From Acidimicrobiia bacterium (GTDB taxonomy: Bacteria; Actinomycetota; Acidimicrobiia; IMCC26256; PALSA-610): 48,175 bases of DNA. This document shows, piece by piece, positions 2,711 through 7,291 of the stretch. Position numbers and translations under genes: made by a program. The stretch's first letter is position 1. The number at the start of each line of letters is the position of its first letter. The stretch is from positions 1 through 48,175 of the forward strand of contig JADGOO010000214.1 of the NCBI GenBank assembly GCA_017882905.1, in the 5' to 3' direction. The notes below the pieces were generated by a model. That model did not search any database and was not told the origin of the DNA. It was given only the letters and a program-made list of their open reading frames with translations.

Positions 2711-4339
2711 CTATGCACCGCCGGGGGTGAGCTCGCTGCGCAAGAGTGCGTAGTGCACCGAGTCGAGCAGCGCCTTCCACGACGCCTCGATGATGTTCTC
2801 GTCGACGCCGATCGTGGTCCAGGCGCCGGTGCGATCGGCCGTGTCGATGAGCACACGCGTCACCGCACCCGTGCCCTTGTTCGAGTCGAGGATGCGCACC
2901 TTGAAGTCGGTGAGGTGCACCTGCTCGAGCGCCGGGAACGAGCCGTTGAGCGCCTGGCGCAACGCCGCGTCGAGCGCGTTCACCGGACCGTTGCCCTCGG
3001 CGGTGGCGATGCGCCGCACACCGTTCACGTGCACCTTGATCGTGGCTTCGGTGAACACCTCGATCGCGTGCGGATCGTCAGGCCGTTCACTCCCCCACGG
3101 CGCCCGGCCCTCACGCGTCTCGACCTTCCACGTCTCGATCGTGAACCACGACGGCTCCCAGCCCGTGGCGCGCCGCATCAGCAGCTCGAGCGAACCGTCG
3201 GCCACCTCGAAGTGGTAGCCCTCGTGCTCGAGCTTCTTCAGCGTGTCGACCACCTCGTTGAGCTGCGGACCGTCGAGTGAGAGGCCGAGCTGCTTCGCCT
3301 TCAGGCTCAATGTGCTCTTGCCCGCGAGCTCGCTCACGACGAAGCGCGTGCCGTTGCCCACACTCTCGGGATCGACGTGCTCGTAGGCATCAGACCGCTT
3401 GGCGATCGCGCTCGTGTGCAGACCGGCCTTGTGCGCAAACGCGCTGTGCCCCACGTATGCGGCCTGCGGGTTGAGCGGCATGTTCACCAGCTCGGCCACA
3501 TGATGCGCGACCGGAGCGAGACGCTCGAGTCGATCGGCCGGGATCGTCTCGATGCCCATCTTCAGCGTGAGGTTCGGGATGATCGTCGTGAGGTTGCAGT
3601 TCCCGGTGCGCTCGCCGTAGCCGTTGATCGTGCCCTGCACCTGCATCGCGCCGCCGCGCACGCCCGCCAGCGCATTGGCGACGCCGGTACCCGCGTCGTC
3701 GTGGAGGTGCACGCCCACACCGACATCGCCACCGAAGTAGCTGACGACCTCCGCGACGATGCGCTCCACGTCGAAGGGCAACGTGCCACCGTTCGTGTCG
3801 CACAGAACCAGCCTCGTGGCACCGGCAGCCGCCGCACCTTCGAGCACGCGCAGCGCGAACTCCGGGTTGACGCGATAGCCGTCGAAGAAGTGCTCGGCGT
3901 CGAAGAACACTTCGCGACCCTCACCCCGCAGGAACTCCACGGAATCGGTCACCATCGCGACGCCTTCGTCGAGCGTCGTCTCGAGTGCCTGCAGCACGTG
4001 GTAATCCCACGTCTTGCCCACGAGGCACACGACCGAAGTGTTCGCCTCGAGCAGATGGCGCAACGTGTCGTCGCTGTCGACCTTGCCCTTGACGCGGCGC
4101 GTCATGCCGAACGCCACGAGCGTGCTCGCGCTCAGCTGCAACTCGCGGCCGGCCCGGCGGAACATCTCGTCGTCCTTCGGGTTGGATCCCGGCCAGCCCG
4201 CCTCGATGTAGTGCACCCCGAGCCAGTCGAGCTGCTCGGCGATGCGCAACTTGTCGTCGACCGTGAGCGAGATCCCCTCCAACTGCGCGCCGTCGCGCAA
4301 TGTGGTGTCGTAGATCTCGACACTCCTCATCGCGGTCAC
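2711..4339 (-). CDS. cimA: (R)-citramalate synthase
   Basis: An alpha-isopropylmalate/homocitrate synthase family enzyme. It carries YDTTLRDGAQLEGISL at the N-terminus (the RDGAQ form typical of citramalate synthases), the metal-binding HLHDDAGTGVANAL region mid-protein, and a C-terminal LeuA-type regulatory domain ending near SVHYALLRSEL. It should condense pyruvate with acetyl-CoA to citramalate, giving 2-oxobutyrate and isoleucine without threonine. A GTG at 4339 overlaps the ilvE stop as GTGA (541 residues); an ATG at 4330 (539 residues) is the alternative. It is the last gene of the leuB-ilvE-cimA operon. Confidence 0.93.
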   Translation of the reverse strand: MTAMRSVEIYDTTLRDGAQLEGISLTVDDKLRIAEQLDWLGVHYIEAGWPGSNPKDDEMFRRAGRELQLSASTLVAFGMTRRVKGKVDSDDTLRHLLEANTSVVCLVGKTWDYHVLQALETTLDEGVAMVTDSVEFLRGEGREVFFDAEHFFDGYRVNPEFALRVLEGAAAAGATRLVLCDTNGGTLPFDVERIVAEVVSYFGGDVGVGVHLHDDAGTGVANALAGVRGGAMQVQGTINGYGERTGNCNLTTIIPNLTLKMGIETIPADRLERLAPVAHHVAELVNMPLNPQAAYVGHSAFAHKAGLHTSAIAKRSDAYEHVDPESVGNGTRFVVSELAGKSTLSLKAKQLGLSLDGPQLNEVVDTLKKLEHEGYHFEVADGSLELLMRRATGWEPSWFTIETWKVETREGRAPWGSERPDDPHAIEVFTEATIKVHVNGVRRIATAEGNGPVNALDAALRQALNGSFPALEQVHLTDFKVRILDSNKGTGAVTRVLIDTADRTGAWTTIGVDENIIEASWKALLDSVHYALLRSELTPGGA

Positions 4340-5259
4340 GACTCGCTCACCAGCTCGCACCACTCTTTGTACTTGTCGACCTGGCCTCGCACGGCCTTGG
4401 CGAACTCGTCGGCGATCGCGAGCGTCATCGGACCCGGGCACGGGATCTCGCGGTCGTCGACGGAGTTGACGGCGCTGACCTCGGCCGCGGTGCCACACGC
4501 GAACATCTCGTCGGCGACGTAGAGGTCGCTGCGCGACAGCTCGCCCACCCGCACCTCGAAGCCGAGATCCCTCGCGATCGTGGTGACGGAGTGCTGCGTG
4601 ATGCCCTGCAACGCGCCGGCCGACGACGGCGGCGTCACGAGCACGCCGTCACGCGCCACGAACACGTTCTCGCCCGGACCCTCGCTCACGAGACCCGCCG
4701 TGTTGAGCATCAGCGCCTCGTCGTAGCCCGCCTTGACCGCCTCGATGTGCGCGAGCGTCGAGTTCACGTAGTTGCCGGTGGTCTTCGACGCGGGCGGCAT
4801 GATGTTCTGGTCGTGGCGGCGCCACGAGCTGATCTTCATGCGCAGACCCTTCGTGAGCCCGTGGTCACCGAGGTAGCGGCCCCACGGCCAGCAGGCAATC
4901 GCCACGTCGACCGTGCACGGGATCGTGCTGAGGCCCATCTCGCCGTAGCCGTAGTAGGCGATCGGCCGCACGTAACACGACGGCTGGCCGCTCTCGCGCA
5001 CCACCGCCTTGCACGCCGCCACCAGCACGTCGACCGAGTACGGCATGTCCATCTGCATGATGCGCGCCGAGCGGTGCAGGCGCTCGATGTGCTCGGTGAG
5101 CCGGAACACTGCAGGGCCCTGCGGCGTCTCGTAGGCGCGGATGCCCTCGAACACGCCCATCCCGTAGTGCAGCGAGTGCGTGAGCACGTGGATGCGCGCC
5201 TCGTCCCAGTCGACGAGCTCGCCGTTCATCCAGATCTTCGGGGTGGGCGTGATGGGCAT
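4336..5259 (-). CDS. ilvE: Branched-chain amino acid aminotransferase
   Basis: A 307-residue fold-type IV PLP aminotransferase. ASKTTGNYVNSTLA contains the PLP lysine and VSEGPGENVF is the family signature. It interconverts 2-oxo acids and Ile, Leu and Val using glutamate. The start ATG is 27 bp from the leuB stop with GAAAGG upstream, and the stop overlaps the cimA start. Position between leuB and cimA fits a role in isoleucine and leucine synthesis. Confidence 0.95.
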   Translation of the reverse strand: MPITPTPKIWMNGELVDWDEARIHVLTHSLHYGMGVFEGIRAYETPQGPAVFRLTEHIERLHRSARIMQMDMPYSVDVLVAACKAVVRESGQPSCYVRPIAYYGYGEMGLSTIPCTVDVAIACWPWGRYLGDHGLTKGLRMKISSWRRHDQNIMPPASKTTGNYVNSTLAHIEAVKAGYDEALMLNTAGLVSEGPGENVFVARDGVLVTPPSSAGALQGITQHSVTTIARDLGFEVRVGELSRSDLYVADEMFACGTAAEVSAVNSVDDREIPCPGPMTLAIADEFAKAVRGQVDKYKEWCELVSES

Positions 5260-5286: not shown

Positions 5287-6282
5287 CTAGAGCACGCTGC
5301 GGATCGCGTCGCCGATCTGCGACGTCGAGCCAGTGGTGTCGGTGGTTGCGTTGACAGCTTTGCGAACACGGGCGGCGGCGTCGGACTCGCCCAGGAACTC
5401 GAGCATCATCGCGGCCGAGATGATGGCCGCGCGCGGGTCGGCGATGCCCTTGCCGGCGATGTCGGGCGCCGAGCCGTGGACCGGCTCGAAGAACGAGGCG
5501 CCCGTGCGCGCGGGGTTCAGGTTCGCCGACGCGGCACGGCCGATCCCGCCCGAGACCGCGCCGCCGAGATCGGTGATGATGTCGCCGAACAGGTTGTCGG
5601 TGACGATCACGTCGTAGCGCGATGGATCTTCCACGAGGTAGATGCATGCCGCGTCGACATGGTGGTACGCAGTGCCGACGTCGGGGAACTCGAGGGCCAC
5701 GGCATCGAACGCACGCTGCCAGAGATCGCCCGCGAACGTGAGCACGTTGGTCTTGTGCACCAAGGTGAGGTGCCGGCGATCCCGTGACTGCGCCAGCTCG
5801 AACGCATAGCGGATGCAGCGCTCCACACCCATGCGGGTGTTCACCGAACCCTGCGTCGCGATCTCGTGGGCGGTGTCCTTGCGCAGGAATCCGCCCTCAC
5901 CCGCGTAGGTTCCCTCGGTGTTCTCGCGCACGACCAAGAAGTCGACACCGTCGTTGTGGCGGTTCGGTCCGGCGAGGAAGGGTCGCAGGTTGATGTAGAG
6001 ATCGAGCGCGAAGCGCATCTTCAGCAGCAAGCCGCGCTCGAGCACGCCGGGCGGTACGTCGGGGGTGCCGACCGCGCCGCCGAGGATCGCGTCGAAGCCC
6101 CGCAGCTCCTCGAGCTCGTCGTCGGGCAGCACCTCGCCGGTGCGCAGGTAGCGGGCACCACCCAGGTCGAACTCGACGGTCTCGATCGCCACGCCGGTGG
6201 CGCGCACCACGTCGAGCGCGACCGCCACGACCTCGGGGCCGATCCCGTCTCCGCCGACCACTGCAATGCGGTGGGCCGTCAT
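5287..6282 (-). CDS. leuB: 3-isopropylmalate dehydrogenase
   Basis: A 331-residue isocitrate/isopropylmalate dehydrogenase family enzyme. It shows [11 protein letters not shown] at the N-terminus, LRPF and [15 protein letters not shown] in the middle, and [14 protein letters not shown] with metal-binding Asp residues. It oxidises 3-isopropylmalate in leucine synthesis and, in citramalate pathways, probably also 3-methylmalate. Neighbouring cimA makes the second role likely (inference). GAGGAG lies 6 bp before the ATG. It is the first structural gene behind the leader and attenuator at 6351-6450. Confidence 0.95.
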
Positions 6283-6350
6283 GACGCTCTCCTCGTTCGG
6301 CCTTGTCGCTTCATCGACCTGGTGTCCTCATCGGCCTGCCTCGGGGCATG

Positions 6351-6376
6351 AAAATGCCGCCCGGTGCGGGGCGGCA
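6351..6376 (-). terminator. Attenuator terminator hairpin before leuB
   Basis: Read on the minus strand, TGCCGCCC pairs perfectly with GGGCGGCA around a 6-nt loop and is followed directly by TTTT. It lies between the leader peptide and leuB, 70 bp before the leuB start, so it can stop transcription before the operon. The T-run is short. Confidence 0.7.
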
Positions 6377-6379
6377 GCG

Positions 6380-6407
6380 AGCGAACGCCGGGAAATCGGC
6401 GTTCGCT
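6380..6407 (-). promoter_or_regulatory. Leader RNA hairpin overlapping the leader peptide stop
   Basis: An 11-bp perfect stem (AGCGAACGCCG with CGGCGTTCGCT) around a 6-nt loop. Its 5' arm in the transcript begins inside the stop codon of the leader peptide and it ends a few bases before the terminator stem. A ribosome stalled or terminating on the leader would change whether it forms. Which pairing is the antiterminator cannot be decided by eye. Confidence 0.7.
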
Positions 6408-6450
6408 AAGGAATGACGATGATGGCGCGGGCGCAGCAGAGCGGTCGCAT
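6406..6450 (-). CDS. Branched-chain amino acid leader peptide
   Basis: A 14-codon frame encodes MRPLCCARAIIVIP and stops with TAG. Three Ile, one Val and one Leu in 14 residues, with Ile-Ile-Val-Ile next to the end, is the pattern of a ribosome-mediated attenuation leader. It is followed at once by two stable hairpins and then leuB-ilvE-cimA, whose products make isoleucine, valine and leucine. GGGTG lies just before the ATG. Such leaders are known before ilv and leu genes in actinobacteria; this peptide sequence is not one I recognise. Confidence 0.8.
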   Translation of the reverse strand: MRPLCCARAIIVIP

Positions 6451-6580
6451 CGTCACCCATCGTAGCCCAGGACGCCCTCGCCCGAGAGCGGATGCGCCGC
6501 GGTGAACCCCCGGCGGACCAGACTCGTACCTCGAACGATCGGCCCTTGCACCGGCGGGGCGAACCCAGAGGAGTCCCAGC

Positions 6581-7291
6581 GTGCGACCGCGTTCCGAGCT
6601 CGGCCTGATCCGTCTCTTGCTGCTCGTCGTCATCGTCGGCCTCGGGCTCGCCACCTACGGCGTCTACTGGTATTTCATCCGAGACGACGCGCCACCGAGC
6701 GCGACCATCCCCGAGCGGCCCACCGTCGCACCCACGAGCGGCGTCGCGGGCACGTACCACGTGACCCTCGGAGCCACCACCTTCGCCGGGTTCCGCATGG
6801 CCGAGCACTTCGGCCCGCTGAGTCGCGCCGCGGTCGTGCGCACACCGAAGGTGGCCGGCGCGATGTCGCTGTCGGCGACCACGGTCACCAGCGCGAACGT
6901 GGTGGTCGACCTCACCGCGCTCGAGAGCAAGGACGGCCAGCCGCCGGGCGTTCCCGACGTCGTGAACCGGCTGCGCTACCTGCAACACTCGTCTCTCGAG
7001 ACCTCGACGTTCCCCAAGACCACGTTCAAGCTCACCCATCCGATCAGCCTCGGCTCGGCACCGAAGGTGGGCGCGAAGATCACCGTGCCCGCCACGGGCA
7101 TCCTGGTGCTGCACGGCGTGAGCAAGACCGTCACAGTCCCCTTGACCGCCATTTGGAACGGCGCCGTGATCGACGTCTCAGGGTCGCTCCCCGTCAAGCT
7201 GGCCGACTACAGCATCAGTCAGCCTTCCGTGCCGTTCGTGACGGTGGATTCAAGCGGCACGCTCGAGTTCGAGCTCGAGTTCGCCAAGTAG
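6581..7291 (+). CDS. YceI-like domain protein with N-terminal membrane anchor
   Basis: A 236-residue protein starting at GTG with AGAGGAG upstream. Residues about 10-32 (RLLLLVVIVGLGLATYGVYW) form one membrane segment, followed by a Pro/Thr-rich linker and an extracytoplasmic YceI-type beta-barrel (TFAGFRMAEHF, then TLEFELEFAK at the end). YceI proteins bind isoprenoid or other lipids; the ligand here is unknown. It is transcribed away from the leuB leader, so 6451-6580 holds two divergent promoters. Confidence 0.82.
   Translation: MRPRSELGLIRLLLLVVIVGLGLATYGVYWYFIRDDAPPSATIPERPTVAPTSGVAGTYHVTLGATTFAGFRMAEHFGPLSRAAVVRTPKVAGAMSLSATTVTSANVVVDLTALESKDGQPPGVPDVVNRLRYLQHSSLETSTFPKTTFKLTHPISLGSAPKVGAKITVPATGILVLHGVSKTVTVPLTAIWNGAVIDVSGSLPVKLADYSISQPSVPFVTVDSSGTLEFELEFAK

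Follow-up and report, generated by a model that had tools for sequence, protein, structure and literature searches.

The locus considered here raises the question of how the leuB-ilvE-cimA operon of an Acidimicrobiia bacterium is matched to the availability of its end products. In the window, i.e., the whole stretch of 48,175 nucleotides that was analyzed, the operon lies on the minus strand and consists of leuB, encoding 3-isopropylmalate dehydrogenase (5287..6282; NCBIfam PRK03437 equivalog, 497 bits), ilvE, encoding the branched-chain aminotransferase (4336..5259; NCBIfam PRK06606 equivalog, 413 bits), and cimA, encoding citramalate synthase (2711..4330; NCBIfam citramal_synth TIGR00977 equivalog, 651 bits), with the start of the latter being set by homology at the ATG of MRSVEIYDTT. 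The first gene controlled would be leuB, and the upstream neighbor is a divergent YceI-like gene on the plus strand (6581-7291). The answer favored here, to which we assign a probability of about 80%, is that the operon is preceded by a ribosome-mediated transcription attenuator, in which a hairpin on the stop codon of a leader peptide would act as the switch.

Architecture of the leuB leader

The element is encoded on the minus strand, as is the operon. A -10-like hexamer TACGAT (6459..6464), without a good -35, places the probable transcription start 0-3 nt before the ATG of a near-leaderless leader ORF of 14 codons (MRPLCCARAIIVIP, 6406..6450), which runs from the ATG at 6450 to a TAG stop at 6408-6406, with an in-frame GTG at 6456. 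The codons ATC ATC GTC ATT (6412..6423) occupy positions -5 to -2 before the stop and are assigned as control codons from their position-specific conservation and from the gene-dependent swap described below, whereas codon -1 (CCT) is a free codon. Hairpin A (6380..6407; AGCGAACGCCG-ATTTCC-CGGCGTTCGCT), with 11 bp and a 6-nt loop, starts inside the stop codon, its first pairs taking the A and G of the leader TAG; it was assigned by folding and by compensatory changes in relatives. A linker of 3 nt (6377..6379) separates it from the intrinsic terminator B (6351..6376; TGCCGCCC-CGCACC-GGGCGGCA-TTTT), with 8 bp, a 6-nt loop and a short U-tract (TTTT), which was assigned by a consensus scan and by covariation. 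The 14-residue leader, the hairpin on its stop, the hairpin with TTTT and leuB behind them are thus present as described in the initial annotation, and the start predicted from TACGAT lies upstream of 6380 rather than downstream of it.

Terminator B is the sole terminator-like site that the consensus scan finds in 6200-6700, where 0.2 would be expected. Furthermore, a codon-free descriptor of the layout (a stop codon; a hairpin with 9 bp or more whose start is 0-3 nt away from the stop; a gap of 0-6 nt; and a terminator hairpin with a U-tract) has one match in the whole window, namely the leuB leader, and 60 dinucleotide shuffles of that sequence give no match. Taken by itself, the 188-nt leader has an unremarkable global folding energy (z = -1.1), so that the case for the element rests on its layout and conservation. 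The locus combines a short ORF, predicted to be translated and rich in end-product codons, before biosynthetic genes with an intrinsic terminator between this leader and the first gene, as is characteristic of the functional class of attenuators.

Conservation across the class

Upstream regions from 60 relatives were fetched by LeuB homology and not by RNA. The same layout is present in 50 of the 55 fetched leuB loci, each of these 50 having a short ORF whose C-terminus is of the same type, so that the leader frame and the hairpins are both conserved. The five exceptions are three loci of one genus (L039, L042 and L045), L041 and L056; in L039 and L045 the upstream gene reaches leuB, so leuB is not the first gene, and the genome of L041 has the module before cimA instead of leuB. 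Among 47 aligned leuB leaders (alignment A1, with one of the two identical rows L023/L025 left out, which shifts the row labels after L024 by one but does not alter the counts), compensatory changes occur in both hairpins. The covariation and the conserved Ile and Val codons that the initial annotation proposed to look for in related Acidimicrobiia are therefore present.

In whole-genome searches, a covariance model built on leuB leaders only (R1) has matches in 53 of the 61 relatives and in 46 of 396 genomes spread across the phylum. With a broader model of 82 diverse copies (R2), the module is detected in 232 of 296 genomes of the class, frequently in two or three copies per genome, and in 92 of the 396 genomes of the phylum sample. 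Both models include codon columns, and copies with very different codons may be missed. R2 matches at E values of ~2e-5 to 1e-3 without branched-chain genes (L309, L314-L317, L328 and L329) are taken as false positives. In the 82 diverse copies, compensatory changes are seen at 20 of 21 base pairs, with a covariation score of 0.51 compared to 0.19 after shuffling, in an alignment that was fitted to the structure and hence leans towards it. Named relatives with the module are Acidimicrobiia, many of them labelled Ilumatobacteraceae or Acidimicrobiales. The combination of an attenuator with a citramalate operon, which had seemed new, does exist, but it is general in the class and not peculiar to the genome of the window. 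The sequence right after the U-tract (UUUUUCGUUGUC or near) is conserved beyond the needs of a terminator in most copies, for example in L016.

The geometry of the element is kept strictly. Among the 165 copies that were measured, the distance from the first base of the stop codon to the start of hairpin A is always 0-3 nt, the linker between A and B is always 0-6 nt long and the two hairpins never overlap; the loops vary in length, as does the spacing to the gene. Hairpin A mostly begins at the third base of the stop codon, which accounts for the near-universal TAG. All control codons precede stem A completely, in the window as in every copy measured. For a ribosome with codon -2 in its A site, counting from the first base of the P-site codon puts the last base of the stop codon at +12. 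Given the position of the ribosomal helicase, this is approximately the distance at which a downstream stem would just be able to form. A ribosome moving on to the stop codon would melt the 5' arm of hairpin A.

The initiation region is similarly constrained. A -10-like hexamer has its first base 12-16 nt before the leader ATG in ~100 of 129 ATG-start leaders, and TTGACA-like hexamers cluster at -39 to -36 from the ATG in the same set. Judged from the position of the -10-like hexamer, transcription would begin ~1-4 nt upstream of this ATG. Corynebacterium and Streptomyces also have leaderless leaders (PMC11857589, PMC8079986).

Control codons follow the downstream gene

R1, although trained on leuB leaders alone, also matches leaders of ilvB, leuA (two types), leuS and cimA, and R2 finds further copies before ilvB, leuA, leuS and cimA. 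The last codons of the leaders follow the target: Ile for cimA, Val or Leu for ilvB, and Leu for leuA and leuS. At codon -2, Ile is found in 74 of 77 leuB copies and in all 43 cimA copies, Val in 21 of 23 ilvB copies and Leu in all eight leuA/leuS copies, and the mutual information between this codon and the gene amounts to 0.80 bits (at most 0.16 in 2000 shuffles). Codon -1 is a free position across the copies, and the N-terminal parts of the leader peptides are not conserved. The genome of the window itself holds three copies of the module, i.e., the one before leuB (leader ending IIVIP) and two outside the window, before ilvB (G000 contig C93:1382-1460, L117; GIVVT) and before leuA (G000 contig C66:18285-18365, L274; GLLLI).

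The bias towards isoleucine that was noted initially holds in its pure form (~97%) only for modules sitting directly before cimA; at the last four control positions of the leuB copies, the codons are mixed, with Ile at ~52% and Val at ~38%. Within the same three-gene cluster, the module precedes leuB in 23 named loci, whereas in 39 named genomes it is placed after ilvE and before cimA (where cimA is on the contig). The latter arrangement, with almost pure Ile codons, is that of the Ilumatobacteraceae. CimA commits to isoleucine, and near-pure Ile before cimA is the pattern that would be expected of an end-product sensor. The initial proposal that leuB-ilvE-cimA is under isoleucine control by ribosome-mediated attenuation is well supported by codons and covariation, with valine to be added as a second signal. 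The two Cys codons of the window leader, previously listed as needing an explanation, are absent as a pair from relatives; as they are not conserved, a second signal through Cys was discarded.

The control positions are occupied by weak, rare codons. Compared to the neighboring genes, ATT at codon -2 is used in 83% versus 21% (97 of 117 Ile cases), GTT in 78% versus 12% and CTT in 60% versus 9%, and GTA makes up 42-50% at positions -3 to -5 versus 4.5%. Codon -2 ends in T in most of the high-GC genomes whatever the amino acid, for which slow wobble decoding or an RNA constraint are both possible.

Several copies or similar elements occur at other genes or in other classes. The leucyl-tRNA synthetase gene leuS carries the same module with Leu codons in other classes (L141, ending GLGLM, and L297, ending SLLLT). 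Hairpin pairs resembling the module lie directly before isocitrate lyase-like genes in another class, in two genomes that belong to one family (L298 and L301); the leaders there end SVSAS and FVAIA and have no clear branched-chain control codons. A similar two-hairpin element (L142, G094 contig C78), with the leader MKLTRRSNK and its stop outside the hairpin, precedes a class V aminotransferase for which the closest NCBIfam model, aspartate-glyoxylate aminotransferase, is below its cut-off. Finally, a module with a leader ending VLLIT (L143, G115 contig C11) precedes a 92-aa ORF that is followed by a likely prephenate dehydratase.

Search for an antiterminator

When hairpin A is masked step by step, terminator B persists in almost all folds. 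Free-energy models form B both with A covered and with A free, so thermodynamics cannot reveal the switching step. The best pairing of the loop and 3' arm of A with the linker and 5' arm of B has a mean of -5.6 kcal/mol, compared to -5.8 kcal/mol in shuffled sequences. The specific candidate, an antiterminator of the A 3' arm with the B 5' arm (GGCG-U-UCG with CGA-C-CGUC), is no stronger than in shuffled or permuted sequences and was rejected. A permutation test, in which segments were exchanged between genomes, was applied to module copies only. It shows strong selection for hairpins A and B themselves (z -7 to -17), but the A3'-B5' pairing of the native sequences is weaker than after permutation in leuB copies (z +4.8) and cimA copies (z +2.5) and does not significantly exceed the permuted level in ilvB copies (z -1.6). 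Nor is any helix between A or B and the leader ORF, the downstream tail or the 5' UTR maintained. A complementarity of the A 5' arm to the sequence after the U-tract (UUCGUU) was likewise dismissed, being broken in many relatives. Taken together, the pairing tests find in the module no mutually exclusive antiterminator helix of the kind that marks the classical alternating structure. As this textbook helix was looked for and not found, the element is not filed as a classical attenuator, even though in outline it very probably works like one.

Proposed mechanism and alternatives

Control of the operon through the charging of Ile- and Val-tRNA is highly likely, judged from the codons and their conservation. 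In the model, a ribosome would begin on the almost leaderless transcript. With charged Ile- and Val-tRNA, it would reach the TAG and unwind hairpin A, and RNA polymerase would stop at B. When charging is low, the ribosome would stall on ATC-ATC-GTC-ATT, hairpin A would stay formed ahead of it, and transcription would enter the operon. The state of hairpin A would thus decide whether B terminates, and A is probably the ribosome-gated switch. The simplest physical reading is that an intact A, 0-6 nt upstream, hinders the closing of B in the exit channel of the polymerase; this steric obstruction of the abutting terminator is put forward tentatively. Hairpin A would refold after the ribosome leaves the stop codon, and the model needs a synchronized polymerase and ribosome. 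Evidence against codon sensing comes from the ilvB leader of Streptomyces coelicolor, where changes of the candidate codons were reported to have no effect on regulation (PMC1262725).

The main alternative is that A acts by timing, pausing the polymerase and keeping it in step with the ribosome. If A were purely such a pause hairpin, the decision would fall to a factor not apparent from the sequence, such as Rho, NusG or a coupled ribosome. Pause hairpins overlapping the leader end are standard in attenuators, and A is conserved in position rather than in sequence, as a pause hairpin could be; however, it is left unexplained why, across operons, the 5' ends of A and B keep a locked distance to the last control codon and to each other, which makes this version rather unlikely. 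Slightly more probable, but still not the expected outcome, is an alternating structure of the classical type as proposed for Corynebacterium glutamicum ilvBNC, in which base pairing through an antiterminator would make B and all or part of A mutually exclusive. The gene class, the leaderless leader and the order of the parts are shared with ilvBNC, an overlap of 3 nt has been argued to be sufficient there (PMC11857589), weak alternative helices of ~-6 kcal/mol do exist in single sequences, and a short pairing may have escaped detection here. This is opposed by the alternative pairing being at shuffled strength, by the permutation results for A3'-B5', the leader and the tail, and by the 0-6 nt between A and B.

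Two further explanations are much less probable. An arrest of the nascent peptide at the stop codon, instead of stalling at hungry codons, would agree with the short hydrophobic C-termini and with the stop codon being part of the element, but it is made very improbable by residues that change among Ile, Val and Leu according to the pathway encoded downstream, by the selection for rare synonymous codons and by the variable N-terminal parts of the leaders. Least credible of all is that the small ORF is there by chance and the hairpins serve simply as a pair of terminators or as the binding site of a protein. In favor of this, B does qualify as a good intrinsic terminator; since the upstream gene is divergent, however, B cannot end an upstream transcript. 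Moreover, the ORF, codons and stop are conserved to near 1-nt precision relative to A, and the sequence of A varies while its pairing is kept.

Relation to known attenuators

Attenuators of the enterobacterial trp, his, leu, thr and ilv operons combine hungry-codon logic, a leader peptide and a terminator with four overlapping segments that include an antiterminator. The first three features are shared by the module, whereas an antiterminator is undetectable in it. For ilvB, leuA and leuS, ribosome-mediated attenuation is established or has been proposed in other Actinobacteria (PMC1262725, PMC10272879, PMC11857589, PMC13236596, PMC8079986). The mode of regulation by actinobacterial ilvB leaders has been called unclear (PMC1262725). 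A close likeness is to the Corynebacterium ilvBNC leader and the ilvB-II motif, which are actinobacterial and share a leaderless leader with branched-chain codons, a hairpin followed by an intrinsic terminator, and a branched-chain gene downstream (PMC10272879, PMC11857589). However, the uORF of ilvB-II spans most of the first stem, while here the control codons lie before A and A starts in the stop codon; the uORF within stem P1 upstream of ilvB by which ilvB-II is recognized is not found in the window, where the gene is leuB. In ilvBNC, the antiterminator and terminator share three bases, unlike the non-overlapping A and B, and the targets here include leuB-ilvE-cimA, cimA, leuA and leuS.

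The uORF of the mycobacterial ilvB1 attenuator also ends in regulatory codons of the LVVI type; in the model proposed there, a ribosome positioned at its stop covers the antiterminator, so that a Rho-independent terminator can fold, and transcript ends support this terminator (PMC13236596). Compared by description, that system assumes a mutually exclusive antiterminator and differs in gene set and class. Streptomyces has short leaderless ORFs containing Leu or Ile/Val/Leu codons upstream of leuA, ilvB and leuS (leuL, ilvL and the leuS attenuator), with no cimA or leuB leader among those given (PMC8079986, PMC1262725); Streptomyces leuA has a LEU pseudoknot, in which Leu codons pair with the leuA Shine-Dalgarno sequence, without a typical terminator, whereas the leuA copies of the module have a terminator. 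Scans with Rfam 15 show no family above its gathering threshold at the window site or in 12 representative loci and no T-box match in either; the sub-threshold candidates at the element were implausible and were set aside. In the open-access papers that were searched, no such leader was found for cimA, for leuB-ilvE-cimA or in Acidimicrobiia.

Significance

The module may perhaps represent a class of attenuators without a base-paired antiterminator, in which a stop-codon-gated hairpin abutting a terminator would decide read-through by obstruction or timing, and in which one cassette would be re-aimed at Ile, Val or Leu by four pre-stop codons. A large family of predicted branched-chain attenuators, outside Rfam 15, is thereby added in a mostly uncultured class, and isoleucine sensing would be tied to the threonine-independent isoleucine route through CimA. 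The family comprises well over 100 naturally occurring versions of a single cassette, in which the control codons change from operon to operon. As its hairpins lack alternative pairing, it makes it testable whether ribosome-gated termination needs an antiterminator.
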